Shown: in pieces, positions 3,303 to 28,192 of the stretch
How positions within the stretch are numbered: the stretch's first letter is position 1
Layout of the letters: every line of letters begins with the position of its first letter
NCBI RefSeq assembly: GCF_037991315.1
Contig: NZ_CP150300.1
Coordinates: 434,001 to 498,000, forward strand
Reading direction: 5' to 3'
Length of the DNA stretch: 64,000 nucleotides
Source of the DNA: Paenibacillus sp. FSL H8-0079
GTDB lineage: Bacteria > Bacillota > Bacilli > Paenibacillales > Paenibacillaceae
The notes under the pieces: generated by a model
What the model saw: only the letters and a program-made list of their open reading frames with translations
Database searches by the model: none
What the model was told of the DNA's origin: nothing
Program-made: the position numbers and the translations under genes

Positions 3303-3457
3303 CTCTTCCGATCGCTGTTATCCCCAGATTTTTTTTGATTCCCTTTCTCTAAAGGGAAAATCCGGTGATAGCGTATGCTTCCGATGCAGCTTTCTTTCAG
3401 AAAGCTTTTAGGAGACCGCTTCGCTTTTTTACGTTATTTCTGTCCTCTCCGTCCTCG
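3303..3457 (-). repeat. structured intergenic repeat, copy 1 of 3
   Basis: Read on the minus strand, this stretch matches the plus-strand repeats near 18710 and 28053. Shared blocks are the GAAGCGAAGCGGTC core and the 3' half GGGGATAACAGCGATC. The central hairpin (GGATTTTCCCTTT, loop, AAAGGGAATC, then a tract of A and ATCT/ATCC) is almost identical to copy 2. This copy carries an extra small hairpin (AGCTTTC/GAAAGCT). The 5' block is degraded (GAGGACGGAGAGGAC). It lies inside the thiamine operon, between thiY and the MTH1187-type gene, about 77 bases before that gene's start, in the transcribed sense. Confidence 0.75.
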
Positions 3458-3489
3458 TGTAAATATTAAGTTCGTTTTATATGAGAATT

Positions 3490-4530
3490 TTATTGGGGTA
3501 AAAACTCGTTCGTATATGCTTTGCTCACATCGATCTGTTCATCCAGCAGTTTTTTGCTAAACATCCAGTCGGTGTAGTTCTGCCACACTTCCTGTTTTTG
3601 TTCTCCCCAGCGTGGGGCGTCATCTGTGTACTTGGGACTGAGCCACTTCTGGCTTGCTAGTACCAATTCCTTGTCCAGATCCGGTACAGCTTTGATCAGA
3701 ATGTTCGCTGCGTCTTCGGGATGATCAATCGCATATTGATACCCTTCGGAAGTGGCTTTCAGGAATGCTTTCACCAGCTCAGGGTCGTTCTGAATCGTCT
3801 GTTCGTTTGTCACGAGGACAGGCGTGTAATAATCCAGTGCATCTGAATAATCTTTCACGTATAACATGTCGATCGGTTCCCCGCGCAGTTCGGCTTCAAT
3901 ACCTGTCCAAGCGTAGAAAATCCACGCGAAATCAATGTCCCGTTTTACTGCAGTGAAAAAGTCAGCGTCACCCATGTTAATGTTTTTTACTTTGGATACA
4001 TCGGCGCCTTCGCCTTCCATAATGGATTGCATCACGGCTTCTTCCACTGGGGAACCCCAACCGCCATAGGTTTTACCTTCAAAATCTTTCGGCGATTTGA
4101 TATTCCGATCCGCCGGAGCAGCGAACCCGGATGTATTATGCTGAATAACTGCTGCAATGGAGACGAGTGGGACACCCTGTGTGCGGGCTTGAGTTACACT
4201 CTCCTGATAGCTTACACCAAAAGGCACTTCATTCGATGCAACCATCGTATCTGCGCCACCGGCACCTGGTTGAACAATCTCAACATTCAAGCCTGCGGCC
4301 TTGTAAAAACCTTGATCCACGGCCGCATACAGGCCGGTATGATTCGTATTCGGTGTCCAGTCGAGCACCACTTTAATATCTTTCAGGGCGAAAGTGTCAC
4401 CTTCGTTGCTGCTTTCCGTATTGGTGTTGCCGTTCTGTGCTGCCGGGGCAGCTTCTTTGCCGCCACATGCGGCTACCGTCACCAGTAGTACGCATAAGAG
4501 CAACAGTCCCATTGTTTTACGCCAATTCAT
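3490..4530 (-). CDS. thiY: thiamine-precursor ABC transporter substrate-binding lipoprotein (ThiY, NMT1/THI5-like)
   Basis: A 346-residue lipoprotein: a short basic N-terminus, a hydrophobic stretch, and a lipobox ending VAAC at about residue 22, then a Gly/Asn/Ser linker. The mature part begins IKVVLDWTPNTNHTGLYAA, the hallmark opening of the NMT1/THI5-like binding proteins for pyrimidine precursors of thiamine, followed by VEIVQPGAGGADTMVASNEVPFGVSYQE. The ATG at 4530 is preceded by GAAGGAGAG at good spacing. The longer frame to 4599 adds a non-signal N-terminus and is rejected. It is the first gene of the operon, behind the TPP riboswitch. Confidence 0.93.
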   Translation of the reverse strand: MNWRKTMGLLLLCVLLVTVAACGGKEAAPAAQNGNTNTESSNEGDTFALKDIKVVLDWTPNTNHTGLYAAVDQGFYKAAGLNVEIVQPGAGGADTMVASNEVPFGVSYQESVTQARTQGVPLVSIAAVIQHNTSGFAAPADRNIKSPKDFEGKTYGGWGSPVEEAVMQSIMEGEGADVSKVKNINMGDADFFTAVKRDIDFAWIFYAWTGIEAELRGEPIDMLYVKDYSDALDYYTPVLVTNEQTIQNDPELVKAFLKATSEGYQYAIDHPEDAANILIKAVPDLDKELVLASQKWLSPKYTDDAPRWGEQKQEVWQNYTDWMFSKKLLDEQIDVSKAYTNEFLPQ

Positions 4531-4768
4531 GTTTGATTCTCTCCTTCGGTATGTCCGGCCGATTGGCACGGTGTACTCCTTGGCTTCATATCCAATCATC
4601 TTGCATAAATCGACAGATTTATACCAGTTGAGATCTGGATGACGTTATTTTTGAACGTAAGTAAAACGTCCATCGATGTCATTCAAGGAAGCCAGACCGC
4701 GTTTAGCGGCAGTTTTTCTTGCCATATCAGGAAGGTGATGCTTCCAAACTTATACTTCTGATAGTAAC

Positions 4769-4796
4769 AAAAAAAGCGCCCCGTATTCCGGGACGC
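4769..4796 (-). terminator. riboswitch terminator of the thiamine operon
   Basis: On the minus strand GCGTCCCG, loop GAATA, CGGGGCGC (8 pairs with one G-T) is followed by seven U. It lies between the TPP aptamer and thiY, the standard place for a transcription-attenuation platform. A second hairpin (CAGCC/GGCTG, extended by wobbles, about 4816-4840) lies between aptamer and terminator and may be the competing or linking structure. Confidence 0.85.
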
Positions 4797-4851
4797 GTGC
4801 AGGCGTTAGAGAGGTGGCGTGCAGCCATAGGGCTGTGCCATTTCGATATAC

Positions 4852-4946
4852 TCCGATTCCTACGCTGGCATGATCCAGATCAGGTCTAAGGGTTAGTATC
4901 TTGGTGGGATACACTCTCAGCCGGCCAATTCCGACTCCCCTGGGAA
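4852..4946 (-). promoter_or_regulatory. TPP riboswitch (THI element)
   Basis: On the minus strand the conserved blocks appear in order: GGGGAGTCGGAAT, GGCTGAGAG, CCCTTAGACCTGATCTGG, ATCATGCCAGCGTAGGAA. These are the universally conserved parts of the thiamine pyrophosphate aptamer. The terminator just downstream indicates that TPP binding switches the thiYXZ operon off. This settles the substrate class of the transporter. Confidence 0.97.
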
Positions 4947-4976
4947 ACTATGAAGTTACGGGCATTACTAGGTGTT

Positions 4977-5005
4977 ATTATAGGCCAGTGGGTGGAACGT
5001 GTCCA
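4977..5005 (-). promoter_or_regulatory. sigma-A promoter of the thiamine operon
   Basis: On the minus strand TGGACA (5000-5005), a 17-base spacer and TATAAT (4977-4982) are seen. The predicted start near 4970 lies about 25 bases before the TPP aptamer. It is a near-consensus promoter in exactly the expected place. Confidence 0.8.
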
Positions 5006-5111
5006 GTCAGGAACTGGATAGCGTGCGGTCGAGTGGAGCATGCCATCCATCAAAGGAATTACACAGGTTACTATTGAACCGTCCTAATTGTTCACGCTCT
5101 AGCTGATGTAC

Positions 5112-5498
5112 TTAACGTTGGAAGAATTCGATCCATTCTTTCTCCGGACCATAGATGAAGAAATAACGGTAACCGTTAGGCAGTGTAATGATTTCTCCAT
5201 CGATAAATTCGGCTTCGGTGGCTTGGATGCGTTTGTACTCAGAATCAAGGTCATCCACATGGATGGCAAAATGGTGCACAGTTCCTTCGGCAGGCAGCTT
5301 GTCGCTGTACCCTTGAATTAACTCTATTTCAGTCTCATTGCTGCCATTGAAGCCGAGAAAGGCAAGCTGAATGACGCCGTTTGTATGCGTTACCCGGTCT
5401 TTCAGTTCCAGTCCAACAACCTCCGTATAGAAACGGAGTGTAGTATCCAGATCACGAACGGCAATGCCGACGTGGTCGATGCGCTTTTGAAAACTCAT
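5112..5498 (-). CDS. VOC family protein (glyoxalase/bleomycin-resistance fold)
   Basis: A 128-residue single vicinal-oxygen-chelate domain pair. Visible features are IDHVGIAVRDLDTTLRFYTEVVGLEL (first beta-alpha-beta module, metal-ligand His in DHVGI), then HHFAIHVDDLD (second His) and the C-terminal FFIYGPEKEWIEFFQR with the usual metal-ligand Glu. It resembles methylmalonyl-CoA epimerase and glyoxalase I, but the exact reaction is not determinable. AAGGGGGAT precedes the ATG. It appears monocistronic and convergent to nothing nearby. Confidence 0.85.
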   Translation of the reverse strand: MSFQKRIDHVGIAVRDLDTTLRFYTEVVGLELKDRVTHTNGVIQLAFLGFNGSNETEIELIQGYSDKLPAEGTVHHFAIHVDDLDSEYKRIQATEAEFIDGEIITLPNGYRYFFIYGPEKEWIEFFQR

Positions 5499-5722
5499 CG
5501 AAGTAATCCCCCTTATGATCCGTGAATGTATTCGGCCAATATTTCCCTTACATAATAAGGAGTATGATAGATTTATAAAACCTAGTTGTCAAGTGGGGAT
5601 TATTGATATATGCACGTGTGAAATTGAGCTGTAGTAACCATCCAATGATTATGTAGTTCACAGAACGTTCACTTATGTGGGGGTATCCATGATCTCTATA
5701 ATTGTCAAAGTAAACAGAGAGG

Positions 5723-6217
5723 ATGAGAGAATTGCCAACAAGCAAGAAGGAACAAATTATTTTCGGATTAATGATGTGTACAGGGATGGTCGTGGTCATG
5801 ATGTTCTTCAATCTATGGCACAGTGGGTTACTCGGCAAGATGTCCCCGCTTGAGATACTGCTTCAATTCATATTATGTTTTGTCATCGCGTTTTTGGTGG
5901 AGTCTTTCATTGTTGGCTCTGTGGCGAGAAAGATTGCATTCTCCTTGCCCTTTGACAAGTCCAACAAGATTCTTGGTGTGCTCGCCATGTCATTTTTCAT
6001 GGTGATTGGCATGGTTCTGATCATGTCCTTGTATGGGATGATTTCGGCTTATCTTGCGAATCAGTTAAGTGGGGGTTCCATATTCCATACGTACCTTCAT
6101 ACGATCGCTCGTAACTTCAGCCTGGCGCTTCCATATCAGTTAATTATTCTGGGACCACTCGTGCGGTATGTATTCGGTAAATTCATTAGGGAAAAGGCTA
6201 CTGTCGTCGTGTCTTAA
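5723..6217 (+). CDS. DUF2798-type membrane protein
   Basis: A 164-residue protein with four hydrophobic segments (about residues 10-32, 42-68, 84-108 and 130-155) separated by short charged loops, resembling the DUF2798 family of uncharacterised bacterial membrane proteins. GAGAGG lies directly against the ATG at 5723, so the true start may be the in-frame TTG at 5732, nine bases downstream of that site. No operon partner is seen. Function unknown. Confidence 0.75.
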   Translation: MRELPTSKKEQIIFGLMMCTGMVVVMMFFNLWHSGLLGKMSPLEILLQFILCFVIAFLVESFIVGSVARKIAFSLPFDKSNKILGVLAMSFFMVIGMVLIMSLYGMISAYLANQLSGGSIFHTYLHTIARNFSLALPYQLIILGPLVRYVFGKFIREKATVVVS

Positions 6218-6322
6218 AAATGGAATAAGGCATGTTGGTTTCTAAGGTGTTCAGCAATGTCTCGCATTCGAGAAAGTATTTCCTGGGCAATCTTGTGCAA
6301 ATGAATAAATCGTATTATAGCG

Positions 6323-6517
6323 TTAACGAATCAAGAACACCTTATTAGGCCAGTTTTTAGGGAATGAAAAATCTAACGAATCTCAGCGGCGTTATTATGC
6401 AAAAAAACTGCAACGAGACCTTAAATTTTGATAACTACCTAACAATAAAGTCTCTAGGATTCGTTAGATTTCAAACATGCAGAAATGGATGCGAACAACT
6501 TGTGCTAGGTTCGTTAG
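6323..6517. repeat. palindromic array of four 24-base repeats
   Basis: Four 24-base units share the start CTAACGAA(T/C)C and mostly the end TTATT. Copies at 6323-6346 and 6373-6396 are on the plus strand, and copies at 6444-6467 and 6494-6517 are on the minus strand. The spacing within each pair is exactly 50 bases, so the whole is an imperfect inverted repeat with a loop of about 47 bases. It sits in the 407-base gap between a plus-strand and a minus-strand gene. No coding signal is seen in the gap. Confidence 0.75.
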
Positions 6518-6532
6518 AACAGAATAACGCTA

Positions 6533-6570
6533 CAAAAAAATGTCCACCGTCAAGTCATGACAGCGGACAT
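6533..6570 (-). terminator. terminator of the MFS gene
   Basis: On the minus strand ATGTCCGC-TGTCA and TGAC-GGTGGACAT form a long stem followed by a run of seven U. It lies about 55 bases after the MFS stop codon. Confidence 0.8.
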
Positions 6571-6624
6571 CTCGATTTCTTTAATAGGTAATTCTAATTC
6601 TTAGGACTGCCTCGACGCATAACG

Positions 6625-7860
6625 TTAAGTTGCTGGATCGGCCACATGTTTGTTCTGCCATTGATACGTGATCACACTAATGACAAGTAGGCCAACTGCA
6701 AAGATGGCAAGCATCCATGCAGACTGATTAACCTCCAAATGATCAAGACTCCATCCCGTCGTCAAAGGTAGAATGGCACCGCCAACTCCACCTGAGGCAA
6801 TCAAAATGCTGGGCGTGGATTCTTCGGTTCCTGGCAGCAGTTTACTGGCGAAGACAAGGGCAATGGAGAAAATGCCTGACATCGCAAGTCCAAGCAGTAA
6901 GATAATGAGAAATGCAGACCAGATTTGGTTTGTAAATGGAAATACCATTAATAAGAGAACAGATGCGAGACAACTGTACAGGACATAGACGCGGTATTGG
7001 AATTTCTCTGCGATATACCCGGCGAAGAGTCTTCCCACAGACATGGCAATCCAGAAACAGGTGACGCTAAGCGCTGCTCCGGCTTCCTTCATGTTCATTT
7101 TCTCAATCAGGATCGCTGGCATGAAGTTCGCAAGACTCATCTCCGTGCCAACGTATAGGAAGAAGAACAGGACGAATAGTACTAGCAGAGTCAGGTTACG
7201 TCCGCGATAGGTTGGGCCGGATGAACTGGCAGGTGCGGTGTGCATCTCACCCGATGTTCCAGCAGAGTGCGTATGTACCGAAGCATGATTTGAACCTCGT
7301 CGATCCAGCACCTGGTCTAGCTCACCGAATGATCCTTTCGCCCAGAATATAAAGGTTAGTGCTGCGCAGATCGCAACAACGAGAAAGGAAAGGCGCCAGT
7401 ATCCGGCAGCAATCAGACCACTGGCAATGAGCGGCATGACCATCGCCCCGATTCCGAATAACACTTCCAGTCGACTCATGGCAACGGCCGTATTGTCTTT
7501 GATTGCAGCGATGATAATGGTGCCAATGACAGCTTCAACCATTCCGAATCCAAAGCCGGCTGCGGGTGCGATGACGAACATCCAGCCCCATGGTGGCAAC
7601 AGCATGTAGGATAATTCTGCAATACAGAGCAACCCTGTGGCGATTAACAGACCTCCCCGTTTACCGAAACGTCTGTTCAGCCATGGGGATAACAATACAC
7701 CACCTAGGAATCCGGCAAATTGAGCGAAGATCAGCGTTCCGCCTTGGCTATAATCTTTGCCGTAATGTTCAAGTGCAACCGGTAGAATGGAACCGAGTAC
7801 AACGTGTGCCAGTCCAATCAGGAAATAGGACAGACATCCGATCCACAGTAATTTTTTCAT
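6625..7860 (-). CDS. MFS transporter
   Basis: A 411-residue major facilitator with about twelve hydrophobic segments. The cytoplasmic loop between helices 2 and 3 carries the MFS signature (LNRRFGKRGGLL). A central hydrophilic loop of about 45 residues (His/Ser/Thr rich) separates the two six-helix halves. It resembles the FucP/NarK-like sugar or YfkF-type permeases, but substrate assignment is not possible. AAGGAG precedes the ATG at 7860. Single gene with its own terminator. Confidence 0.88.
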   Translation of the reverse strand: MKKLLWIGCLSYFLIGLAHVVLGSILPVALEHYGKDYSQGGTLIFAQFAGFLGGVLLSPWLNRRFGKRGGLLIATGLLCIAELSYMLLPPWGWMFVIAPAAGFGFGMVEAVIGTIIIAAIKDNTAVAMSRLEVLFGIGAMVMPLIASGLIAAGYWRLSFLVVAICAALTFIFWAKGSFGELDQVLDRRGSNHASVHTHSAGTSGEMHTAPASSSGPTYRGRNLTLLVLFVLFFFLYVGTEMSLANFMPAILIEKMNMKEAGAALSVTCFWIAMSVGRLFAGYIAEKFQYRVYVLYSCLASVLLLMVFPFTNQIWSAFLIILLLGLAMSGIFSIALVFASKLLPGTEESTPSILIASGGVGGAILPLTTGWSLDHLEVNQSAWMLAIFAVGLLVISVITYQWQNKHVADPAT

Positions 7861-7982
7861 AACGAACTCCTTCTACTTATATACATAAATTGAGAATCAG
7901 AATAAAGCGTAATCATGGAGACAAAGTCTATCATAACAGGACATGTCAAGTTGTGCCATGAATTCCTGATCGATACAGAAGG

Positions 7983-8012
7983 TTGCAATTTGGTCTGACG
8001 ATCGTATATACT
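7983..8012 (+). promoter_or_regulatory. probable promoter of the serS leader
   Basis: TTGCAA (7983-7988) and TATACT (8007-8012) are separated by 18 bases, placing transcription start near 8019 and giving a leader of about 230 bases that contains the T-box. Confidence 0.55.
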
Positions 8013-8029
8013 GAGACACAACAATTACA

Positions 8030-8226
8030 GATCGGACCATGCCGTTGAAGAGCATCCAACTCGGAGGCGTTTTCGCCAGGGGAGCGATATTTCCCCAAGT
8101 TAACCGGAACCGCCCGTTATCGCGGACCAAGAGGCTGGAAGCAGGATATCCTGATTCAGCAAGTTGGGTGGCACCGCGAGCAGAGCGCTCCTCGTCCCAA
8201 GGGATGAGGGCGCTCTTTGCATTTTT
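8030..8226 (+). promoter_or_regulatory. T-box leader of serS
   Basis: The conserved antiterminator sequence GGGTGGCACCGCG is at 8166-8178. It is followed by a strong terminator (8182-8216) with arms AGAGCGC/GCGCTCT and CCTCGTCCC/GGGATGAGG and a T-rich tail. A stem (GCTG..CAGGATATCCTG..CAGC) precedes it, as expected for stem III. Uncharged tRNA-Ser should stabilise the antiterminator. I could not assign the specifier codon with confidence. Confidence 0.92.
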
Positions 8227-8248
8227 ACAGCCAAAGGAGACGGTGACC

Positions 8249-9547
8249 ATGTTAGAAATGAAATGGATTCGGGCACATGCAGAAGAGGTTCAGGCCGCAG
8301 CGGACGGGAAAAAAATCAAGATCAACATTCGTACATTGCTGGAGCGGGATGAAGAACGCAGAGCACTTTTGCAGGAATCGGAAGAAGGGCGCAGACTGCG
8401 CAATACGTTATCCGCGGACATTGGCAGACTCATGCAAGCCGGGAATCGGGAACAGGCCGAGGGTTTGCGGGCACAGGTGAAACAGCTCAATGAACAGTTG
8501 GAACACGTGGAAGCTAGGCTTGCCCCTGTGCAGGAGGAAGTAACCAAGCTGCAATGGCTGGTACCCAATATCGTGTCCCCGGATACCCCCAATGGCTTGT
8601 CGGACGCAGACAATGTAGAGCTACGACGTGTGGGAGAGGTGCCAACGTTCGAGTATAACACCAAAGATCACGTCCAACTTGGGGAATTGCACGATCTCAT
8701 CGATATTCCCCGTGGAGTTAAGATTGGCGGGACGCGAAGCTATGTATTGAAAGGTGCTGGCTTGCTACTGCATCGGGCTGTACAGCAACTTGCGCTTGAT
8801 CTGCTGCTGAAGCATGGGTTTACACCAATGGAGGTACCGCTGATGGTCAGGGAGGATGCATTGGTGAACACCGGATTCTTCCCAACCGGTCGAGATCAGG
8901 TCTATGAACTCGAAGGGGAGAACAAGTGGCTGGTGGGGACTTCTGAAGTGCCGCTGGTTTCGTATTATGCGGATGAGATTGTTGATGTTGCAGAGCCAGT
9001 GAAACTGGCTGCGGTATCGACTTGTTTCCGCAGTGAGGTTGGCTCCGGCGGACGTGATGTACGTGGGTTGTACCGTGTGCACCAATTTGCCAAAGTCGAG
9101 CAGGTAATCCTCTGTGCCCCTGATGCGGAAGAATCGGAGCGCATGCTGCAAGAGATTACGGGACACGCCGAGGAATTGCTGCAATTACTGGAACTGCCGT
9201 ATCGTGTTGTCGCTGTATGTACCGGTGATATGTCGCAGAAAACGTACAAACAGTATGACATCGAGACCTGGATGCCAAGCCGCGGTGCCTATGGAGAAAC
9301 GCATTCGTCGTCGAATCTGCATGATTTTCAGGCTCGCCGTTCGAACATTCGTTGCCTGGATGCCGAAGGCAAGTTGGCCTACTGTCACACCTTGAATAAT
9401 ACGGCGGTAGCATCGCCGCGTATCCTGATTCCTTTGCTTGAGAATCATCAGCAGGAGGATGGAAGCATTCGCATTCCGGCAGCCCTGCGGCCCTATATGG
9501 GCGGGGCCGAGAGCTTGATTTTGCCAGAGCAGGATGAAGTGAAGTAG
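8249..9547 (+). CDS. serS: seryl-tRNA synthetase (divergent motif 3)
   Basis: A 432-residue class II synthetase. An N-terminal coiled-coil arm (about residues 30-100) is followed by the catalytic domain with motif 2 (FRSEVGSGGRDVRGLYRVHQ) and motif 3 around SNLHDFQARRSNIR. The usual motif-3 region reads EISSCSNF; here it is ETHSSSNL, and the downstream HTLN segment reads NTAVASPRIL rather than the common GSGLAVGRT. This suggests a second, divergent SerRS (SerS2-like). AAAGGAGA lies before the ATG at 8249. The frame extends upstream to 8039, but that part is T-box RNA. Confidence 0.92.
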   Translation: MLEMKWIRAHAEEVQAAADGKKIKINIRTLLERDEERRALLQESEEGRRLRNTLSADIGRLMQAGNREQAEGLRAQVKQLNEQLEHVEARLAPVQEEVTKLQWLVPNIVSPDTPNGLSDADNVELRRVGEVPTFEYNTKDHVQLGELHDLIDIPRGVKIGGTRSYVLKGAGLLLHRAVQQLALDLLLKHGFTPMEVPLMVREDALVNTGFFPTGRDQVYELEGENKWLVGTSEVPLVSYYADEIVDVAEPVKLAAVSTCFRSEVGSGGRDVRGLYRVHQFAKVEQVILCAPDAEESERMLQEITGHAEELLQLLELPYRVVAVCTGDMSQKTYKQYDIETWMPSRGAYGETHSSSNLHDFQARRSNIRCLDAEGKLAYCHTLNNTAVASPRILIPLLENHQQEDGSIRIPAALRPYMGGAESLILPEQDEVK

Positions 9548-9575
9548 AGAGGTTAGTTAAAGCTCTAGTAATTCA

Positions 9576-9629
9576 AAAAGGGGATGTTCCACACGTCATG
9601 TTGCATGTGACGATGGACATCCCTTTTTC
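9576..9629 (+). terminator. terminator of serS
   Basis: GGGATGT-CCA-GTCA and TGAC-TGG-ACATCCC form a long interrupted stem flanked by AAAAA and TTTTT, so it can also work on the minus strand. Confidence 0.8.
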
Positions 9630-9772
9630 AACGGTAACACTATTTAACGAACCGATCTCCTACTATGTTGTGCTGAACTGATCCGGTAAGTGCTTGGACC
9701 TAAGATATAGCTTACTTCCTTGATCACAAATTTCTTCGTTTATGTAAGTAAATAAAATTATTTCTTTAATTG

Positions 9773-9877
9773 TCAACGCAGCTTCCATTCACGCTCGTTA
9801 ATGATTTCAATTTGTCCAGATTCAAGGGCTTTTTTGAAACGATTGCGGGCTGTTTTCATCAATAGAACCATTTCGTC
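9773..9877 (-). other. small open frame or gene remnant, unknown
   Basis: The end of a minus-strand frame reads RPEDEMVLLMKTARNRFKKALESG and ends EREWKLR, which has protein-like charge patterning. The only Met start close to it (9877) lacks a clear ribosome site, and the rest of the frame upstream runs into the next gene on the other strand. It may be a remnant of a longer gene or a very small gene. Weak support. Confidence 0.25.
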
Positions 9878-10037
9878 TTCAGGACGAATCTTGGTGGATA
9901 CGCGACCTTCCCATATTATACAATGAAAATTATGAATTGTTCCAAGACTCCCACTTACGTTATTCAACTTTATGCAATTCATATCCGATATAATATAATA
10001 GAAGTAAAATATTGGATTATGGGAGATGGAGATAGAA

Positions 10038-11144: not shown

Positions 11145-11238
11145 ATATTTATATAATGAAGTGCTTTGCATCAATTCAAAGATAAAATCAATACATGACA
11201 CTTAAAATCATCAATATCATCAAGGTAACAGACAACCA

Positions 11239-18437: not shown

Positions 18438-18709
18438 ATCAGCCATGCAGAAATTTCGTACTAATCCCTTTATGTAAACATTTTTATAAAGAACTTTTCC
18501 ATTTTTGTCACGTTTGCATACAGGTTCATTGGATTCACCATAGGTGAGGTGGGTACACTATAAGTACAGGCGTATTACACAAGCATTTGCATAAAGCTGG
18601 CTCTAGTGATGCGCGAATAATGAACTCTCATTAAACACAAAGAGATAGTAACAACTAAACTTCTCTTTGTACTTTTATTATTCACACTAAATTGGGAGAA
18701 CGGTAGACG

Positions 18710-18844
18710 TAGTGGAGGGGACGGAATCGATTCTGAGGAAGCAAAGCGTTCGCCTTTATCAACGGATTTTCCCTTTGAGAAAAGGGAATCAAAAAAATCC
18801 GGGGATAACAGCGATCCAAAGAACGATCCGTACCCGGAACGACC
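18710..18844 (+). repeat. structured intergenic repeat, copy 2 of 3
   Basis: It contains ACGTAGTGGAGGGGACGG, then ATCGATTCTG, the GAAGC-AAGCG core, a central hairpin and ACAGCGATC..GAACGATCCGTA. Pairing arms are ACGGAATCG (18721-18729) with CGATCCGT (18824-18831), TTATC (18756-18760) with GATAA (18804-18808), and GGATTTTCCCTTT (18764-18776) with AAAGGGAATC plus ATCC. It ends about 50 bases before the PNPOx-family gene, on the same strand. The rest of the 457-base gap (18438-18709) holds no convincing gene. Confidence 0.8.
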
Positions 18845-18894: not shown

Positions 18895-19311
18895 ATGAAC
18901 CAGACTGAATTGGAACAAAACATTGTAAAGGCTTTGGAAAACAACCCTTTTTGCAGCTTCTCCACTGTGGAGGATGGTAAACCGAAATCCCGCTATATGG
19001 CGCTTTTCAACGATGGACTGAACATTCATCTGGCAACGAACCGCCGTACACACAAAGTAGAGGAACTGGAGAATAATCCGAATGTTAGCCTACTACTTGG
19101 TTATGAGGCTGGTGGTTCCAAGGAAGTGGTTGAGATTGAAGGAACCTGTGAAGTGACGAAGAACGAAGGTTTGCGTGAGCAAGTGTGGAACGACGAACTG
19201 AAGGCCTGGTTCGATGGACCTAATGATCCGAACTATGTCATCCTGGATATCACGCCTGCTCGTATTGAGTATACGGGCAAAGACCATGAACATCACGTGT
19301 GGGAACATTAA
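18895..19311 (+). CDS. pyridoxamine 5'-phosphate oxidase family protein (general stress protein 26-like)
   Basis: A 138-residue split-barrel flavin-binding-fold protein. The pattern FCSFSTVEDGKPKSRYMALF, then LATNRRTHKVEELENNPNVSLLLGY is typical of the small PNPOx-like general stress proteins, which bind FMN or F420-like cofactors. The ATG at 18895 has AAAGGAG at good spacing. The frame continues 61 codons upstream but that stretch is the structured repeat. It sits directly behind repeat copy 2. Confidence 0.88.
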   Translation: MNQTELEQNIVKALENNPFCSFSTVEDGKPKSRYMALFNDGLNIHLATNRRTHKVEELENNPNVSLLLGYEAGGSKEVVEIEGTCEVTKNEGLREQVWNDELKAWFDGPNDPNYVILDITPARIEYTGKDHEHHVWEH

Positions 19312-19789: not shown

Positions 19790-22039
19790 TTGAAAATGAG
19801 AAAAAAAGTATTATCGAGCCTGACTGCCGCTTTGGTTGCATTAAACGTGCTTGCGGTATTTCCGGTACCTGTGTCGGCTGCGGATGCTGCCAAAGTTAAA
19901 CTGCGGATCATGGAGACCACAGACATTCATACCAATCTGGTTAACTATGATTATTATTCCGACAAAGAGACAGACCAATATGGACTCGCCAAAACAGCAA
20001 CACTGATTAAGAAAGCCCGTGACGAAGCGAAGAACAGCCTGCTGTTTGATAACGGGGATCTAATTCAGGGGAATCCGCTGGGAGACTACGCTGCCAAAAT
20101 TGATCCACTGAAAAAGGGTGAGACTCACCCTGTATATAAAGCGATGAATCTGCTCGATTATGATGCAGGGAACATCGGTAACCATGAATTCAACTATGGT
20201 CTGGATTTCCTGGACATGACGCTGGAGGGAGCAAACTTCCCTTACATTAATGCCAATGTCTATGTAGACGATGGTGATGATGATGAGACAAATGACAAGA
20301 ATTATTTCACACCGTATGAGATTTTGGATAAGAAAGTAACGGACGAAACGGGTAAGGAACATGCGATCAAAGTGGGTGTGATCGGATTCGTGCCGCCACA
20401 GATCATGCAGTGGGACAGTGCTAACCTTGAAGGTAAGGTCATCGCCAAAGATATTATCGCTACTGCGAAAAAATTCATTCCTGAGATGAAAGCAAAAGGT
20501 GCCGACATTATTGTAGCTATTCCTCACTCCGGATTTGAGGAAATTCCTCAAACGGATCTGATGGAGAACTCCGTATTGTATCTGAGCCAAGTTGAAGGCA
20601 TTAATGCCATTTTGTTTGGACATGCCCACAAAGTGTTCCCAAGTGCTGATTTTGCTGGCAAAAAAGGGGTAGACCTGGAGAAGGGCACAATCAATGGCGT
20701 TCCTGCGGTTGAGCCAGGATTCTGGGGGGATCACCTGGGAATTATTGATCTGGATCTAGAACAAGTGGATGGTAAATGGAAAGTGGTGGATTCCAAAACG
20801 GAAGCACGCCCAATCTATGACACAGCCAACAAAAAGGCACTGGTAGAAGCGGATCAGGACATCATTGATGCGGTTCACGAAGAGCATGAAGGCACATTGG
20901 AGTATGTTCGTGGTCCGGTGGGCGAAACGACTGCACCAATCAACAGCTTCTTCGCTCTGGTTCAGGATGATCCATCCATTCAGATCGTAACGAATGCACA
21001 GAAATGGTATGTTGAAAAACATATGCAAGGTACGGAATATGAGAAAATTCCTGTATTGTCCGCAGGTGCTCCATTCAAAGCAGGTGGACGTTCAGGCGCT
21101 TCGTATTACACGAATATTCCTACGGGCACCATTGCGATCAAAAACGTTGCTGACTTGTACGTGTATCCAAATACGGTACATGCTGTAATGGTTAACGGCG
21201 CAGAACTGAAAGAATGGCTGGAATGGTCTGCAGGCCAATTCAACCAGATCGACCCGGCAAAAGGTGGACAACAACAACTGATCAACAATGACTTCCCAAC
21301 GTACAACTTCGATGTTATTGATGGCGTAACGTATCAGATTGATGTAACTCAACCAGCCAAATACGATAGCAAAGCTACGATCGTTAATGCATCCGCAAGC
21401 CGGATCAAGGATCTGAGCTTTAACGGCAAACCAATTGACCCAGCGCAAAAATTCATTGTAGCGACGAATAACTACCGTGCTTCTTCATCCAAACTGGCTA
21501 ACCCGGACGGCAAACGCATCGTTCTGGCTGCACCGGATGAGAACCGTCAAGTGATTATCGACTACATCCGTGAGAATAAAACGATTAATCCAGCAGCGGA
21601 CGGCAACTGGTCCCTGGCACCAATCAAACCATCTGCTGGTGTAACTGCAGCAGCGCTGAACGATCTTGAAGTTGTGTTTGCTTCTTCCCCGGATGCGAAA
21701 GATCTGGTTGAAGCGAATCCGGCAATGTCATTCATTGGTACGAACAAAGAAGGTTTTGCAGAGTATGGCTTGAAACTGACAGGTGAAGCAACGACAACAC
21801 CTGAAACAGGTGTGGAGCCAGCTCCGACGCCTAAACCAACACCAACGCCGACACCTAAGCCACAACCTGAGAAACCGGCAACCAACAACAAGGTTGTATA
21901 TGTGGTGAAAAAAGGGGATAACCTGTACCGCATCGGTTTGAAATATGGTGTGGACTGGCGCAAGCTTGCGACAGCGAACAAAATCTCAAATGTGCATAAC
22001 CTGAAAGTTGGACAGAAAATCGTGATTCCCGCTTCTTAA
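19790..22039 (+). CDS. exported 2',3'-cyclic-nucleotide phosphodiesterase/3'-nucleotidase with LysM domain
   Basis: A 749-residue CpdB/YfkN-type enzyme. A signal peptide ends near PVSAADAA. The metallophosphatase domain shows METTDIHTNL, DNGDLIQGNPLG, GNHEFNYG, PHSGFEE and FGHAHKVF (two-metal site). A 5'-nucleotidase C-terminal domain follows (about residues 360-640), then a Pro/Thr linker, and one C-terminal LysM domain (YVVKKGDNLYRIGLKYGVDW to KIVIPAS) that should hold the enzyme on the peptidoglycan. The TTG at 19790 is seven bases after GGAGG, so I prefer it over the ATG two codons later. It releases phosphate and nucleosides from extracellular nucleotides. Confidence 0.93.
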   Translation: MKMRKKVLSSLTAALVALNVLAVFPVPVSAADAAKVKLRIMETTDIHTNLVNYDYYSDKETDQYGLAKTATLIKKARDEAKNSLLFDNGDLIQGNPLGDYAAKIDPLKKGETHPVYKAMNLLDYDAGNIGNHEFNYGLDFLDMTLEGANFPYINANVYVDDGDDDETNDKNYFTPYEILDKKVTDETGKEHAIKVGVIGFVPPQIMQWDSANLEGKVIAKDIIATAKKFIPEMKAKGADIIVAIPHSGFEEIPQTDLMENSVLYLSQVEGINAILFGHAHKVFPSADFAGKKGVDLEKGTINGVPAVEPGFWGDHLGIIDLDLEQVDGKWKVVDSKTEARPIYDTANKKALVEADQDIIDAVHEEHEGTLEYVRGPVGETTAPINSFFALVQDDPSIQIVTNAQKWYVEKHMQGTEYEKIPVLSAGAPFKAGGRSGASYYTNIPTGTIAIKNVADLYVYPNTVHAVMVNGAELKEWLEWSAGQFNQIDPAKGGQQQLINNDFPTYNFDVIDGVTYQIDVTQPAKYDSKATIVNASASRIKDLSFNGKPIDPAQKFIVATNNYRASSSKLANPDGKRIVLAAPDENRQVIIDYIRENKTINPAADGNWSLAPIKPSAGVTAAALNDLEVVFASSPDAKDLVEANPAMSFIGTNKEGFAEYGLKLTGEATTTPETGVEPAPTPKPTPTPTPKPQPEKPATNNKVVYVVKKGDNLYRIGLKYGVDWRKLATANKISNVHNLKVGQKIVIPAS

Positions 22040-22060
22040 GTTTAATAAGCGGTGAGGGGG

Positions 22061-22094
22061 AGACCGACAGTCATCAGACTGCCGGTCTTTTTTT
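22061..22094 (+). terminator. terminator of the phosphoesterase gene
   Basis: AGACCG-CAGT, loop CATCAG, ACTG-CGGTCT followed by a run of T. The group II intron begins only a few bases after this T-run. Confidence 0.88.
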
Positions 22095-22101
22095 CTGCAG
22101 C

Positions 22102-22821
22102 GTGCCCAGCTAAGCACGCATCTTCTAGCCGATGAAAATCCGGTCGCGGGAGAGGCCAAGCCCCGTGTAGCTAGGATACTTGCGTATGGAGAAATCTGTG
22201 CGTAAAAGCGTATCGACGAAAGTACCTGTCAGAGACAGGGCGAGCGACAGTCCAGGCCGTAACATCAAGTGAATCCTGCCGCGTCGTCAAAAAGGCCTTG
22301 CAAGAGGGAAAAGAGGAAGCCGAGTCTCGTGTAGATGGACGAAGGCCAGGGAAGCTGTTTTGAACTTGGAGCGACAGCGAAGAATCCTCCGGCGTAAGGG
22401 GAGCGGCATGGTCTGAAAGAGGATGTAGTGAACTGGGGAGACCCTCCCCTGCACGGATTTTTTTTTTTTTATGAATCCGTAAAGTGGTACTCTATAAGCC
22501 AGAAGGTGAAGTGAGTGAACAGCAGGAAGGGAGTCCGAGGGGCTCATACTACCTGGGAACGCAGGACAACACAACCTGCGGGAGGGAAGGAGCCCTACTT
22601 TGTTCACGTTTCACCAAGAGGTACGAGTTCGTGAATGCCAAAATGGCTAACGACACGCTAGAAAACACTCAACAACTCTTATAGGGGAAACTAGGTCATG
22701 AGGCCAAAGCAAATATGCTGCATGCCCATGAAAGATGAACATCGGAAAGCCGTATGAGGGAAAACCTCACGTACGGTTTGATGAGGAGGGGCTGGGTTTT
22801 GCCCAGCCTTTTACTCTAGAT
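22102..22821 (+). mobile_element. ORF-less group II intron
   Basis: The 5' end GTGCC at 22102 resembles the GTGYG intron start. Domain V is clear at 22746-22779: AAAGCCGTATGAGG, GAAA loop, CCTCACGTACGGTTT, with the AGC catalytic triad at 22748-22750. Domain VI follows (GGGGCTGGG, TTTTG, CCCAGCC) with a candidate bulged branch-point A at 22813 and an AT 3' end about eight bases on. No reverse transcriptase frame exists. A small hairpin with a 13-base poly-T loop (arms ACGGATT 22453-22459 and AATCCGT 22474-22480) may mark domain IV. Insertion just behind a terminator is the habit of class IIC introns. Exact ends and class are uncertain. Confidence 0.82.
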
Positions 22822-22974
22822 TTTGAATATATTTGTTTCAATAACCGTCATACAGGAAGTCATCAAAACAGTAGAGATTAATTTCTAGACCCATGATATA
22901 ATATTTACAAACTTTGGGTATATACCAGTGAACATTAATGGACATGGAATCATAAATTGGCAAGGGGGTCCTAC

Positions 22975-24012
22975 ATGAATTGCAGTGGCTGCAGTCCAAT
23001 CTATCCTATAGAGGGTGAAGGTACCTTGTACCTGCGTCCCATTTCCCCCGCTTTGCTGGAAGCGCTGCAAACGCCGGGAAGACATATCGAGACGTCGGAT
23101 GACATGATGTGGATGCATTTTACGGATATTGAGGCGGTTCAGAGCTTAATAGAAGAGATCGGTATAATTGATCCCACTTTACGTGATTCCCTAACCGTTC
23201 AGATTACGCCTTTATACGAACAGGCTAATGAAGAAGGCTGGATCAGTCTATACATGCAGGAGTCCCGTTTCAAGCATGCGGAGCTCGTTTCCATTATTTT
23301 GGAGCATCAATTCAGCAGTCATATGCAGCCCATTGTTGATGCCTCGGAGCAGATTATTGGATATGAGTTTTTACTTCGTCCTGCTGAAAATGGAAAATCC
23401 TTCAGTTCCTATGAATTATTTGAAGTTGCGCGCGAGACCGGATTACACTCTTTTCTGGATCGAACGGCGCGTATTACCGCCATTGAGACCAGTGCCCTTT
23501 TTCTGCCGCATGGTGTCAAACGCTTCGTTAATTTCCTGCCTTCCTCCATATATAACCCCGACTATTGTCTGACACATACGTTTGAAGCGATTGAACGTCT
23601 TTCACTTGACCCTAAAGATTTTGTGTTTGAAGTCGTGGAAACAGAGCAGATTCAGCATATGTCCATCTTGCAGCACATCTTTGAGGTATATCGTTCACGC
23701 GGAATGTCGGTTGCGTTGGATGATGTGGGTGCCGGATATTCGACAATAGAGTTGATGAGTCGATTAGAACCGGATTTTGTCAAAATAGATCGAAGTCTTA
23801 TTGATCGTTGTGATCAAGATTCGACCAAACAACAGAAGATTCTTCATATTGTTGAGATGTCCAGTCGATTTGGGGGTCAAGTACTTGCCGAGGGGATTGA
23901 ACGAATGGAGGAGTTTGAATTCTGTCGTTCTATCGGTATTGAGCTTGCGCAAGGTTACTATTTCGGTAAACCTGCGGCACAACCTCCAGACGGTACATGT
24001 TCCAACACTTGA
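22975..24012 (+). CDS. EAL domain protein (c-di-GMP phosphodiesterase)
   Basis: A 345-residue cytosolic protein. A Cys-containing N-terminus (NCSGCSPIYP) and a roughly 95-residue helical region precede an EAL domain (about residues 100-340). EAL-type catalytic residues are kept in variant contexts: GYEFLLRP for EALLR, NFLPSS for NxxP, FEVVETEQ, ALDDVGAGYS for DDFGTGYS, VKIDRSLI, LAEGIE and the end AQGYYFGKP. It should hydrolyse c-di-GMP. The ATG at 22975 is seven bases after AAGGGGG. No GGDEF domain or membrane segment is present. Confidence 0.9.
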   Translation: MNCSGCSPIYPIEGEGTLYLRPISPALLEALQTPGRHIETSDDMMWMHFTDIEAVQSLIEEIGIIDPTLRDSLTVQITPLYEQANEEGWISLYMQESRFKHAELVSIILEHQFSSHMQPIVDASEQIIGYEFLLRPAENGKSFSSYELFEVARETGLHSFLDRTARITAIETSALFLPHGVKRFVNFLPSSIYNPDYCLTHTFEAIERLSLDPKDFVFEVVETEQIQHMSILQHIFEVYRSRGMSVALDDVGAGYSTIELMSRLEPDFVKIDRSLIDRCDQDSTKQQKILHIVEMSSRFGGQVLAEGIERMEEFEFCRSIGIELAQGYYFGKPAAQPPDGTCSNT

Positions 24013-24049
24013 TCTAAATTTATGAAATAATTAGTAACCCTTACCTTGT

Positions 24050-24083
24050 ACAAGTCACTTCTAAGTAAGAAGTGGCTTGTTTG
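24050..24083 (+). terminator. terminator of the EAL gene
   Basis: ACAAGTCACTTCT, short loop, AGAAGTGGCTTGT then TTGG. A strong stem but a poor T-run. Confidence 0.6.
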
Positions 24084-24105
24084 GCGTGCCTGCACATTTT
24101 TCTCT

Positions 24106-24133
24106 CAAATAAATACCCTCACCCAGCCGATAT
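24106..24133 (+). promoter_or_regulatory. sigma-D (SigD/FliA-type) promoter of the chemotaxis receptor
   Basis: A perfect GCCGATAT -10 element lies at 24126-24133, with CAAA (24106-24109) 16 bases upstream. The consensus for SigD is TAAA, about 15 bases, GCCGATAT. It precedes the chemoreceptor gene by 76 bases, which fits the motility regulon. Confidence 0.75.
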
Positions 24134-24208
24134 ATAAGATAAGCCTTTTAGATTGATCCATACATACAAAGAAAGAGGGCATTTTTACATTTAGAGGGGG
24201 AGAAATTC

Positions 24209-26305
24209 ATGAGTGAAGCTCAGGATACTAAAACAATGAAAGCAGCGAAACCTGCCAAACCAAAACAAAATAAAAATAAAAAGAAGAATAAAAAGAAAGG
24301 TTTCGTCTGGAATATAAGGAACAAATTATTGGTCTCTTTCCTGGCAGTTCTACTCCTGCCGAGTCTGGCCATAGGTTTGATCACGCTAACGATGGCTGAA
24401 GGTGGCGTGCAGGGACAACTAGTGGACAGCGCTCAGCAAAGTGTGAACACGGCCAATACAATTGTAGAAAGCCAAGTGAGTTATAAAATTCATGACATTA
24501 ACTATTTTGCGGATGCCCTTGATCCGAGCCTGATTAAAGGGGAGAACGATAGTCCTGAGGTTCAGGTGAAGCTGGAGCAATATCTGGGCTTACATCCGGA
24601 TGCCTTGAATATTTTTGTGGGAACGACAGAAGGAGTCATGGTTCGAGGTAAACCAACAGCGAGCAGCACGCGGGGAGATGCATATGATCCACGGGAGCGG
24701 GAGTGGTACACGCTTGCGATGGAGAAGCCAGGTACGACTGTGGTTTCACCTGTATCCATCAACACGGATGGGGCTGCGGTTGTATTTATCTCCAAAACAT
24801 TAAAGGATCAATCGGGTGTTATCAGTTTATCTTTGGACCTGACAGACTTGCAAGAACAGGCATCCATTAAGGTGGGTAAAGAAGGCTACGTCATTATTCT
24901 GGATGAGAACAAAAATTATGTCGTTTCTCCTGTAGTTGATGCAGGCACGCAGGAAACTAGCGGCTTGCTAGATGAAATGTACGAGGGTCAAGAAGGCCAA
25001 TTCGATTACGAATTCAACGAGCAACCGAAAATGATGATTTTTTCAACGAATGAAGTAACGGGTTGGAAGATTGCTGGTACGATGTTCAAGAGTGAAATAA
25101 CCAATGCAAGTAAGGATATTCGCATGGCGACGTTTGCTGTTATTCTTGCGGCCACGTTCCTTACCCTGATCTTTATTATTTGGTTTACTCGTTCCATGCT
25201 ACGTCCGATCAAACGATTGCAGGAATCTGCCAGAGCCGTGAGTAAAGGTGACCTGACCGTGAAAATGGAAACAGGGCGTAAAGATGAAGTCGGTGATCTG
25301 GCGAAGTATTTCGAGCGTATGGTTGATAACCTGCGGATGATGATTCTTGGTGTACAGGAAACGACAGAGCAGGTATCCGCTTCTTCTCAAGAATTGTCTG
25401 CCAGTGCAGAACAAACAACCAAAGCGATTGAACATTCAACACTGGCCATACAGGAACTGGCTGAAGGTGCTGAGCAACAGGTGAACAGCGTGAAAGACGG
25501 ATCTGGACAGATGAGCCGAATGGCAGAAGATGTTCGAATGATGTCGGAGCGTGTGCAATCGATCACGGCGAATATGCGGAATACGTCCGGAGCCGCTTCT
25601 TCTGGTAATGAGGCAGCTGGACAGGCTGTAGAGCAGATGAACAGCATCCAGGAAACGGTGGAGCAGCTGGGAACAGTGGTTCAGTCACTGAATGCCCGTT
25701 CGGTAGAGATCGGCAGCATGGTTGATGTCATTGCCTCCATCTCCAAACAAACGAACTTGCTCGCATTGAATGCTTCCATTGAAGCGGCAAGAGCGGGTGA
25801 TGCGGGTCGTGGGTTTGCTGTTGTAGCAGGAGAAGTACGTAAACTGGCAGAAGAATCCGGTAGCTCGGCAGCACAGATCGGTGAGGTGGTTCACAATATC
25901 CGTCAGGATATGGATGCCGCCCTAATCGCCATGAATGCCGCCCAGACTCGGGTGGGAGAAGGAATTCAGGCCGTGAATACGTCCGGACAATCGTTTGCCC
26001 AGATTCGGGAGGCAGTGGAAGATGCTGTTCATACATTGGATGACCTGTCCGAAACAACGAAGCAACTGGAGAACGGTGCATCCCACGTTGCCAAAGCGAT
26101 GAGCGATATTTCGAATGTGACTCAGGAATCTGCTGCAAATACAGAATCCGTGTCTGCATCTTCACAAGAGCAATTGGCGTCGGTAGAAGAGATTGCATCA
26201 TCCTCGGCACATCTGAATAGCATGGCAGAACAATTACAAGGACTGCTTGGCATGTTCAAGATGGTAGAGGATACACCGAAGGATAAGGGTAACGATAAAT
26301 CCTAA
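24209..26305 (+). CDS. methyl-accepting chemotaxis protein (dCache type)
   Basis: A 698-residue chemoreceptor. A very Lys-rich N-terminal tail (residues 10-35) is followed by TM1 (about 43-65). An extracytoplasmic double-Cache sensor runs to about residue 300 ([24 protein letters not shown] is the Cache signature). TM2 is at about 305-328, then HAMP ([25 protein letters not shown]). A long coiled-coil signalling domain contains the hairpin-tip motif [23 protein letters not shown]. It starts with an ATG behind GAGGGGGAG and carries a sigma-D promoter. The ligand is unknown; dCache receptors often bind amino acids or related molecules. Confidence 0.95.
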
Positions 26306-26483
26306 CATTTGGATAGCGAAACTTACTACAGATTCTATAAAACAAAATAAAGATAGACATTGCTCCTGCGGCCCTGTATAAATATATCGTCTGGTTCTTC
26401 CGCGCATCTTGCGGTGTAATCTTACAATATAATGATGGAATGAACGATAGAATATATCGAGACAGGGTACAGCAGGAGGCTCT

Positions 26484-27776
26484 ATGGTATACGTAGCAAT
26501 ATTGATTTTTGCAGTAACAATCACCTTGGTGATCTGGCAACCTCGTGGATTGGGTATCGGCTGGACTGCCTCGGGTGGGGCATTGCTTGCCCTGCTGTGT
26601 GGAGTCGTCAGCTTGAACGACGCATCGGATGTGGCATCCATTGTATGGAATGCAACGCTGGCTTTTGTCGGTATTATTATGATTTCTCTTATTCTCGACG
26701 AGACGGGTTTCTTTGAATGGGCTGCCCTTCACATGGCACGGCTCGCTGGAGGAGACGGTCGCAGACTGTTCTTCTACTCCATTTTGTTGGGTGCCGCAGT
26801 ATCTGCGCTGTTCGCGAATGACGGTGCGGCGCTCATTCTGACGCCAATTGTACTGGCAATGGTGCGTGCATTGAAGTTCGATGAGCGCATGGTGCTGGCT
26901 TTTGTGATGGCGAGTGGATTTATCGCCGATACCACATCATTGCCGCTGGTCGTCAGCAATCTGGTTAACATTGTGTCTGCTGATTTCTTTGGTATTACAT
27001 TTGTGGAATATGCGGTGCGCATGGTCGTACCCAATCTGTTCTCAATCGTAGCGAGTACGGGGATGTTGTTCTTGTTTTATCGTAAAAGCATACCCCTTCG
27101 CTACGACATCTCCGCGGCACGCGACCCGAAGGAAGCGATACGTGATCCACGGATGTTTCGAATCGCTTGGTTCATGCTGGGGCTGTTACTGGTGGCCTAT
27201 GCATCCAGTGAGTTTCTGCCGATTCCTGTGTCGGTTATCGTTGGCTCCGTTGCGTTGCTATTCGCCTTACTGGCACGCAAGAGTGAGGCGGTTGATCTGA
27301 AACGGGTAATCAAGGAAGCACCGTGGTCGATTGTGGTATTCTCGGTGGGCATGTACATCGTCGTATATGGACTGCGTAATGCAGGTTTAACTGATCATCT
27401 GAGCCGTTGGCTCGATGCCATAGCGGAGCATGGCCTACTGGCTGCCTCCCTCGGAATGGGCATCATCGCTGCCGTATTGTCATCAGTGATGAACAACCTG
27501 CCGACCGTGTTGATTAACCTGCTAGCCATCCAGGGTGCACATACCGAAGGTATCGTTCAAGAGGCATTGATCTATGCTAATGTCATTGGTTCCGATCTGG
27601 GTCCCAAAATGACTCCAATTGGATCCCTTGCCACATTGCTGTGGCTGCACGTGTTGTCCCGCAAAGGTGTGAAGATTACATGGGGATATTATTTCAAGGC
27701 AGGCATCATCCTGACGATTCCTACATTGCTAATTACCTTGGCCGGATTGGCAGTGTGGTTATGGATTCTGAGTTAG
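26484..27776 (+). CDS. arsB: ArsB-type arsenite efflux membrane protein
   Basis: A 430-residue protein with 11-12 hydrophobic segments of the ArsB/NhaD (ion transporter) superfamily. Motifs include [47 protein letters not shown] and the later [16 protein letters not shown] plus [20 protein letters not shown], all close to classical ArsB. GGAGG precedes the ATG. No arsR, arsA or arsC is adjacent, so its regulation and true substrate (arsenite, antimonite or another anion) rest on family likeness only. Confidence 0.87.
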
Positions 27777-27830
27777 TAAAATTAGATTTTACATTAGGTA
27801 TTAATAAAGATAATCTGTTTTAATGTAAAA

Positions 27831-27879
27831 GCTGCTCTCACAGCTGGTGCCTATGCACTGGCAGTGAGGCAGTTTTTTT
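27831..27879 (+). terminator. terminator of the arsB gene
   Basis: CTGC-CTCAC-GC-GGTGC pairs with GCAC-GGC-GTGAG-CAG in an interrupted stem followed by seven T. A further hairpin (AGGTCAGCC/GGGCTGGCCT, 27952-27981) follows. Confidence 0.75.
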
Positions 27880-28052
27880 ATTTCCTGCTTTTGCACCTTC
27901 TATAGAAGAAATGAATTTTGTTTCTCTATTAAGTACTTAAGCATTTACATCAGGTCAGCCTATTATAGGGCTGGCCTTCTTTGCCTACACCCCAGGCAGG
28001 AGATTGAAATGCCTGAGGCCTAACAAGCGCTGACACAGCGAAGGGAAACCGC

Positions 28053-28192
28053 GAACGTAGTGGAGGGGACGGAATCGATTCTGAAGAAGCGAAGCGGTCG
28101 CCTTTGTCTCCAAATTTCAACAATTTAATTATTAATTAAAGAAAATATGGAGACAACAGCGATCAGAAGAACGATCCGTAACCGGAACGGCC
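28053..28192 (+). repeat. structured intergenic repeat, copy 3 of 3
   Basis: The best-preserved copy: ACGTAGTGGAGGGGACGG, ATCGATTCTGAAGAAGCG, AAGCGGTCGCC at the left, and ACAGCGATC, GAAGAACGATCCGTA, ACCGGAACGG at the right. Pairing arms are ACGGAATCG (28069-28077) with CGATCCGT (28172-28179), GGTCGC (28096-28101) with GCGATC (28159-28164), and TTGTCTCCA (28104-28112) with TGGAGACAA (28148-28156). The AT-rich tip differs completely from copies 1 and 2. It precedes pstS by about 270 bases on the same strand. Confidence 0.82.

Follow-up and report, generated by a model that had tools for sequence, protein, structure and literature searches.

A 64,000-nucleotide stretch of the Paenibacillus sp. 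FSL H8-0079 genome (contig NZ_CP150300.1, positions 434,001 to 498,000; hereafter the window) contains three dispersed copies of a structured repeat, each followed by a gene on its own strand. Is the repeat a structured RNA in the service of the genes that it precedes, or a mobile piece of DNA that happens to form a hairpin? An earlier note on the window offered these as alternatives; our analysis indicates that both descriptions fit a single object, which combines a covarying inner module with inverted-repeat arms and with sites that are empty in a relative. We consider the odds slightly better than even (a probability of about 0.55) that the repeat is a non-autonomous element resembling a miniature inverted-repeat transposable element (MITE), with a structured module that is selected strand-specifically, and mainly for the element's own spread or persistence as RNA. 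The case is built from sequence comparison.

The copies and their parts, in positions of the window, are as follows (the subfamilies and types are described below).

3250..3483, minus strand: copy 1 with its arms, a chimera with a left arm of subfamily B, a right arm of type D and an extra hairpin (arms assigned by reading)
3371..3409 (approximate bounds), minus strand: extra hairpin of copy 1 (TAAAAGCTTTCTGAAAGAAAGCT...), a module present or absent by species
3418..3424, minus strand: mini-hairpin GCGAAGC of copy 1, read in the sequence and from covariation of the 7-mer
18711..18841, plus strand: inner module of copy 2, subfamily A (covariance model match of 138 bits; fold)
18741..18747, plus strand: mini-hairpin GCAAAGC of copy 2, read in the sequence and from covariation
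28059..28189, plus strand: inner module of copy 3, subfamily A, with a divergent tip (model match of 126 bits; fold)
28089..28095, plus strand: mini-hairpin GCGAAGC of copy 3, read in the sequence and from covariation

Direct reading finds the sequence blocks that the earlier note quoted for the three copies at the positions and on the strands it gave, while its extents prove too short (copy 1 with its arms spans about 3250-3483, as against 3303-3457). The paired changes that it described are real: where copy 3 has the helix TTGTC/GACAA, copy 2 has TTATC/GATAA and copy 1 has TATC/GATA, and the outer helix ACGGAATCG/CGATCCGT is kept in copies 2 and 3. Folding is more stable than in dinucleotide shuffles for copy 2 (z = -4.8), copy 3 (z = -4.4) and copy 1 with its arms (z = -2.8). 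The 17-mer GAAGCGAAGCGGTCGCC, with up to three mismatches, has four matches in the window, where 0.08 would be expected by chance; the fourth match, at 62456, was rejected as a copy of the element.

To describe the fold we built a covariance model from 30 blastn places aligned by sequence, of which 27 trimmed copies were used and three loci dropped. Copies 2 and 3, both among the 27 sequences from which the model was built, align to it across all 129 positions. Copy 1, which lies outside that set, matches more weakly (46 bits, 3287-3397) because it contains an additional hairpin (about 38 nt) and its right arm belongs to a different subfamily.

With the 27 copies aligned by sequence alone, RNAalifold predicts 32 pairs, 15 of them with changes on both sides. 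Three parts make up the module: the outer helices, a mini-hairpin of 2 bp that closes a short loop, and a long, irregular hairpin whose tip varies. The mini-hairpin itself covaries: in place of GCGAAGC, an AC-loop-GT form is present in 7 of 105 copies of the genome that contains the window, and among 34 rows from other genera there are 5 with AC-loop-GT and 28 with GC-loop-GC. We therefore describe the module as a three-way junction.

The earlier note made its RNA idea depend on covarying pairs in further genomic copies, and these are strongly present. In an alignment of copies from outside the genus (32 distinct rows from 15 genomes, one genome lying outside the family and one row being a partial opposite-strand match), 97.8% of cells are standard pairs and 29 of 33 pairs show double changes; this alignment was made with the model and is biased toward the model's structure, but the double changes are legible in the letters. 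None of 500 shuffles reaches any of five measures, and slid versions of the alignment pair in at most 49.3% of cells. The repeat thus has the covariation-supported fold of a structured RNA class.

The number of copies is large. A search of the whole genome and of related Paenibacillus with a covariance model, as the earlier note had proposed, gave at least 149 matches in the window's own genome (6.7 Mb) from the best 150 candidates scored, and further copies came to light when the regions around these were searched; blastn with copy 2 finds at least 43 places there (40 of 158 candidates scored). All 24 genomes of the genus that were examined, the window's own included, have a match, as do 2 of 15 genomes from other genera of the order (1 and 8 matches). 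A family-wide search was positive in 199 of 245 genomes and 14 of 19 genera, and a sample of the phylum in 5 of 299 genomes, all five from the same family; both searches were more strictly filtered and considered few candidates in each genome, and their absences therefore carry little weight. An exact 21-base piece gave at least 120 matches in named genomes, and all 120 listed titles are Paenibacillus. With few exceptions, the element is limited to the single bacterial family to which Paenibacillus belongs. Carriage by phages or plasmids was rejected, with a model match in none of 50,697 phage records and in one of 72,556 plasmid records.

No Rfam 15 family reaches its gathering score at any of the three window copies, and standard RNA annotation would therefore overlook the element. 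A permissive search, made with copy 2 only, returned msiK and snoR64a, both weak and below threshold, and neither was accepted. In searches of the open-licence PMC literature, none of the listed titles or abstract openings describes the repeat in Paenibacillus.

The architecture of the copies is that of a MITE: a non-coding element of about 200-230 bp with its arms, present in many dispersed copies. The copies are long, imperfect palindromes, each with inverted-repeat arms on either side of an inner module some 125 nt long. By a simple motif test, 97 of the 145 own-genome copies with flanks belong to subfamily B and 18 to subfamily A, which includes window copies 2 and 3; the remaining 30 belong to neither. 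Subfamily B arms read CTATATAARTTGAACTAAAC-ATTTACACG... on the left and ...TATTCTTTAGTTCAAYTTATATAG on the right, and type D arms GTGCAGAACC / GGTACTGCA; many subfamily B copies have terminal inverted repeats (CTATATAARTTGAACTAAA.../...TTTAGTTCAAYTTATATAG), again as expected of a MITE. Pairing between the arms (at least 18 of 27 arm pairs) is kept in 50 of 105 copies. Many copies contain the extra hairpin of about 38 nt, whose 21-nt core is found at 54 places in the genome with up to two mismatches, 45 of these at listed copies, while the reversed control occurs there 0 times at the same stringency.

A copy at locus L266 (1460-1620, minus strand) has very different arms, CTATATATAGGGAGAGTG.../...ATATATATAG, which shows that the arms around a core are either swapped or free to evolve. 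Copies may also stand head to tail. A tandem array with a unit of about 183 bp occupies 4640875-4641374 of contig C1 of the own genome (loci L004, L005 and L009), and in another genus (genome G267) arrays with a unit of about 220 bp lie at 15400-15968 of contig C19 and 277133-277736 of contig C18.

If the element moves, then some of its sites should be empty in a relative. By means of both flanks, 44 of the 145 copies could be placed in two 0.8-Mb stretches of a relative, genome G011, which lacks the element at 11 of the 44 sites. Two of the 11 (798130 and 4317506) retain remnants of the ends in G011 and may be losses; a third, 414578, shows a possible 7-bp duplication, TTATATA, and the other empty sites show no clear duplication. 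The earlier note had regarded clear terminal duplication of the MITE kind as grounds for giving up an RNA regulator: the terminal repeats and the empty orthologous sites are indeed there, the target-site duplication at one site at most. The tandem array at 4640875-4641374 has apparently one unit fewer in G011.

Sites that are shared differ in what they hold. The type of element differs at 239073, at 4287312 and, in genome G003, at the copy-2 site; the 38-nt insert is present in one genome and not the other at 5 of 17 shared copies. The G011 ortholog of copy 1 is of subfamily B on both sides and has no insert, and that of copy 3 has diverged with its helix preserved by paired changes. The differences in type and insert are most simply read as exchange between copies, the alternative being independent re-insertion.

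Which strand is selected? A G.U wobble on one strand is an A.C mismatch on the other, and the two can be counted. For these counts, and for those of fold integrity below, we used only copies of 124-132 nt (105 of the 145). Across 27 inner pairs of these 105 copies, aligned by sequence alone, there are 63 G.U and 7 A.C, the copies being related and so not independent events; 17 pairs individually favour G.U, one favours A.C and 9 are tied. Two inner pairs were left out (one mostly G.U, the other at a helix end), and their inclusion gives 133:20. For the 50 copies whose arms are good, the ratio is 31:1 in the inner module and 51:54 in the arms; in other genera, with a fitted alignment, it is 24:9. 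The variable tip (33 G.U to 98 A.C) is excluded from the argument because its alignment is unreliable. The inner module has therefore been selected as one strand, and the arms have not: the arms decay like DNA ends, without strand preference.

The reading that we favour joins these observations as follows. The inner module would be selected as RNA read from the modelled strand, chiefly because the element itself would need the fold in order to spread or persist. Recombination between copies would give rise to the differences at shared sites. A copy with a promoter before it and a ribosome site after it would become part of the 5' leader, where, by analogy with the ERIC and Correia/NEMIS repeats discussed below, it would most likely change the processing or stability of the mRNA. 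A regulatory role in leaders is plausible for many copies, though the fold is probably kept mainly for another reason.

Broken cells among the inner pairs are about equally rare whichever way the downstream gene points (56/2318 in 83 copies with a same-strand gene, 10/581 in 21 with an opposite one, p = 0.22), and this independence of orientation makes leader function less likely as the main force.

Several observations weigh against this reading. The counts of broken cells are drawn from what the model detected, and broken copies are less readily detected by it. No consistent target-site duplication is seen at the empty sites examined. Nor was an autonomous transposon with matching ends found in the window's own genome, the one genome that was searched for it: the arm pattern has 36 matches there, of which just one falls outside the listed copies and proves to be a copy with an internal deletion, and an autonomous parent was accordingly rejected in that genome. 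Between orthologs the core changes less than the arms. In 17 shared copies of similar length the core differs from G011 by 6.5%, the arms by 10.6% and 13.6%, the tip by 11.8% and sequence further out, coding included, by 7-8%; when three swapped, chimeric or divergent sites are set aside, the figures fall to 3.8% for the core and to 8.3% and 10.1% for the arms.

The copy-2 site bears on the same point. Among 15 loci of the genus found by DNA similarity, nine have the element between a NUDIX gene and the PNPOx-family gene, and there the flanks have diverged much further than the element itself; in the six more distant loci, where only the PNPOx-family gene matches, there is no model match within 1.5 kb. 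In genome G013 the paired differences TTTGTTTCTGAAT/ATTCAGAAACAAC preserve a helix at this site, a point taken from reading the alignment by eye, as a regular-expression check matched nothing for one half. Both the slower change of the core and the retention at this site could reflect use by the host. Finally, the G.U excess fits folded single-stranded DNA as well, and so cannot tell it from RNA.

A bolder version of the favoured reading would have the folded sense-strand module, rather than the DNA ends, recognised by the machinery that mobilises or copies the element. We regard this as possible but doubtful. If true, the repeat would be a selfish structured-RNA element, a bacterial counterpart of the short interspersed nuclear elements: selection would keep its fold in almost every copy, at whatever site that copy arrived, its arms and inserts would be interchangeable accessories, and its recruitment into 5' leaders would be a side effect.

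The first rival is that the host keeps the repeat before genes as a cis-acting leader regulator, either riboswitch-like or a protein-binding RNA. The genes that follow the window copies, as given by a home-made gene caller that was used throughout, are these.

2936..3226, minus strand: gene after copy 1, Thiamine_BP family, 96 amino acids (gene caller; Pfam PF01910)
18895..19311, plus strand: gene after copy 2, PNPOx_N family, 138 amino acids (gene caller; Pfam PF01243)
28464..29390, plus strand: gene after copy 3, a PBP_like_2 substrate-binding protein, PstS-like (gene caller; Pfam PF12849)

These assignments agree with the MTH1187-type, PNPOx-family and pstS genes named earlier: PBP_like_2 is consistent with PstS, and Thiamine_BP is the Pfam family that contains MTH1187. 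All three copies are followed by same-strand genes, as the earlier note stated, but not all immediately, copy 3 ending 275 nt before 28464. Upstream of copy 2, an alignment of related loci shows a strongly conserved block at 18523-18572 (plus strand) with a TTCACC-ATA-GGTGA inverted repeat; it is perhaps a promoter or operator of the PNPOx-family gene.

At the scale of the genome, 144 of 145 copies are intergenic. Relative to the element, the upstream and downstream genes are same/same in 92 cases, opposite/same in 23, same/opposite in 15 and opposite/opposite in 14; in G011 (48 copies, after removal of twelve partial opposite-strand matches) the corresponding counts are 32, 7, 2 and 7. Orientation between tandem genes, which the RNA idea required to be other than random, is thus biased in the own genome (92:14) and in G011 (32:7). 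In other genera the bias is weak, 13:8 (28 loci: same/same 13, opposite/same 2, same/opposite 4, opposite/opposite 8, and one with no upstream gene called). In the own genome the median distance from the end of the core to a same-strand start is 73 nt, and with the arm taken as 45 nt, no more than 30 nt remain before the start codon in 62 of the 115 copies with a same-strand downstream gene; this leaves no room for a promoter, and such copies therefore probably lie in 5' leaders. Promoter-like sites are uninformative, showing no clear excess over single-base shuffles upstream (32 against 27.7 of 115), inside (40 against 47.4 of 115) or downstream of the element (11 against 10.0 of 53).

The sense bias, the short distance to start codons, the retention at the copy-2 site despite diverging flanks and the compensatory differences between orthologs all favour a leader regulator. 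Against it, the downstream genes are unrelated in the loci examined, where a riboswitch or leader regulator would have related genes in sense; in 29 of 144 copies the downstream gene lies on the opposite strand, and these copies are no less intact; the bias is slight in other genera; and a quarter of the mapped sites (the 11 of 44) are empty in the relative. As an account of the element, the regulator idea seems to us unlikely.

One further regularity concerns the ends. Of 144 copies, 99 have the right end of the element closer to a gene end than the left; this holds for 14 of 15 copies in convergent and 13 of 14 in antisense arrangement, and for only 54 of the 92 that lie in sense between same-strand genes. 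In the convergent and antisense positions the effect cannot be due to transcription of a downstream gene. The polarity may reflect the mode of insertion.

A second rival locates the selected fold in DNA: the module would be exposed as single-stranded DNA on the lagging-strand template and read by a recombinase that recognises hairpins. The hairpins of attC sites and of IS200/IS605 ends are recognised in this way by recombinases as folded single-stranded DNA. The strand-specific wobble excess is compatible with such a history, since G.T is better tolerated than A.C in a DNA hairpin too, and 121 of 149 copies are co-oriented with replication if the terminus is assumed near 3.3-3.5 Mb. In the own genome this bias is more than a by-product of gene direction, as leading-strand gene pairs (83:7) differ from lagging-strand pairs (9:7; p = 0.0009) and copies in divergent regions also follow replication (18:5, p = 0.011). 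Against these stand the convergent regions, in which there is no bias (8:7); the sample from G011 (28:6 and 4:1), which is too small to separate the two effects; and the lack of a Y1 transposase (PF01797, E<=0.001) in the own genome and in nine others of the 16 searched, copy-rich ones included. With no Y1 transposase in the own genome, that enzyme was rejected as mobiliser, and the genome lacks the transposase expected of a REP/RAYT or IS200/IS605-derived element. We think selection as single-stranded DNA rather improbable.

Least probable, and by our estimate very much so, is an ordinary DNA MITE whose terminal repeats are read by a DDE transposase and whose fold is a by-product of the palindrome: its inverted-repeat arms with TATATA ends, the empty sites and the one possible TTATATA duplication would suit it, but a by-product would not preserve the mini-hairpin, the internal loops and the compensatory changes across genera, the wobble excess is limited to the inner module, and the arm sequences vary between subfamilies.

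The window holds other structured RNAs. Two pieces of a group II intron (RF02003 and RF00029), about 0.5 kb apart, lie at 22126-22821 (plus strand), flanked by a 5'-nucleotidase-type gene and an EAL gene; no gene was called inside, and this is possibly an intron without an open reading frame for a reverse transcriptase. Rfam also places a thiamine pyrophosphate riboswitch at 4839-4951 (minus strand) and a pair of glycine riboswitch aptamers at 33715-33977 (plus strand).

How does the Paenibacillus element compare with known repeats? In the Bacillus cereus group, bcr1 and other bcr repeats are dispersed, MITE-like in structure and often located in untranslated regions (PMC3446304), with lengths of about 147-167 nt (PMC2267715). 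They are like the element in these respects, the likeness being one of description only; the model finds nothing outside its own family in the 299 genomes of the phylum. Streptococcus pneumoniae has 108 dispersed stem-loop copies of RUP, with elements nested in one another, and BOX, for which riboswitch-like motifs have been proposed (PMC2229807, PMC10969869). RUP and BOX share with the element many dispersed stem-loop copies, again by description only; the ends of RUP match IS630-Spn1, whereas no matching insertion sequence was found for the Paenibacillus element in its own genome.

The ERIC/IRU repeats of enterobacteria are dispersed palindromes of about 127 bp that are transcribed and affect mRNA stability according to their orientation (PMC2229807). 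They have the same anatomy and type of placement in other hosts, and are likened here by description alone. The Correia/NEMIS repeats of Neisseria, which occur near genes in forms of about 107 and 155 bp that differ by an internal 50 bp, have terminal repeats, and their transcripts are cleaved by RNase III (PMC2229807, PMC10969869). Their terminal repeats are of 24 bp with a target-site duplication, in contrast to the subfamily-variable arms and lack of a consistent duplication in Paenibacillus; the internal 50-bp piece resembles the hairpin module of about 38 nt.

Short bacterial repeats of the MITE kind have mostly been seen as palindromes whose folding in transcripts is incidental. The element described here differs in uniting apparent mobility with a strongly covarying, strand-specific module, and it does so in most of the sampled genomes of its family. 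If its copies act in leaders, one repeat may have changed the expression of some 100 genes in a single genome; and the long-standing question of whether the fold of such a repeat is selected for its own mobility, for a leader function in the host or as single-stranded DNA becomes one that can be put to the test.

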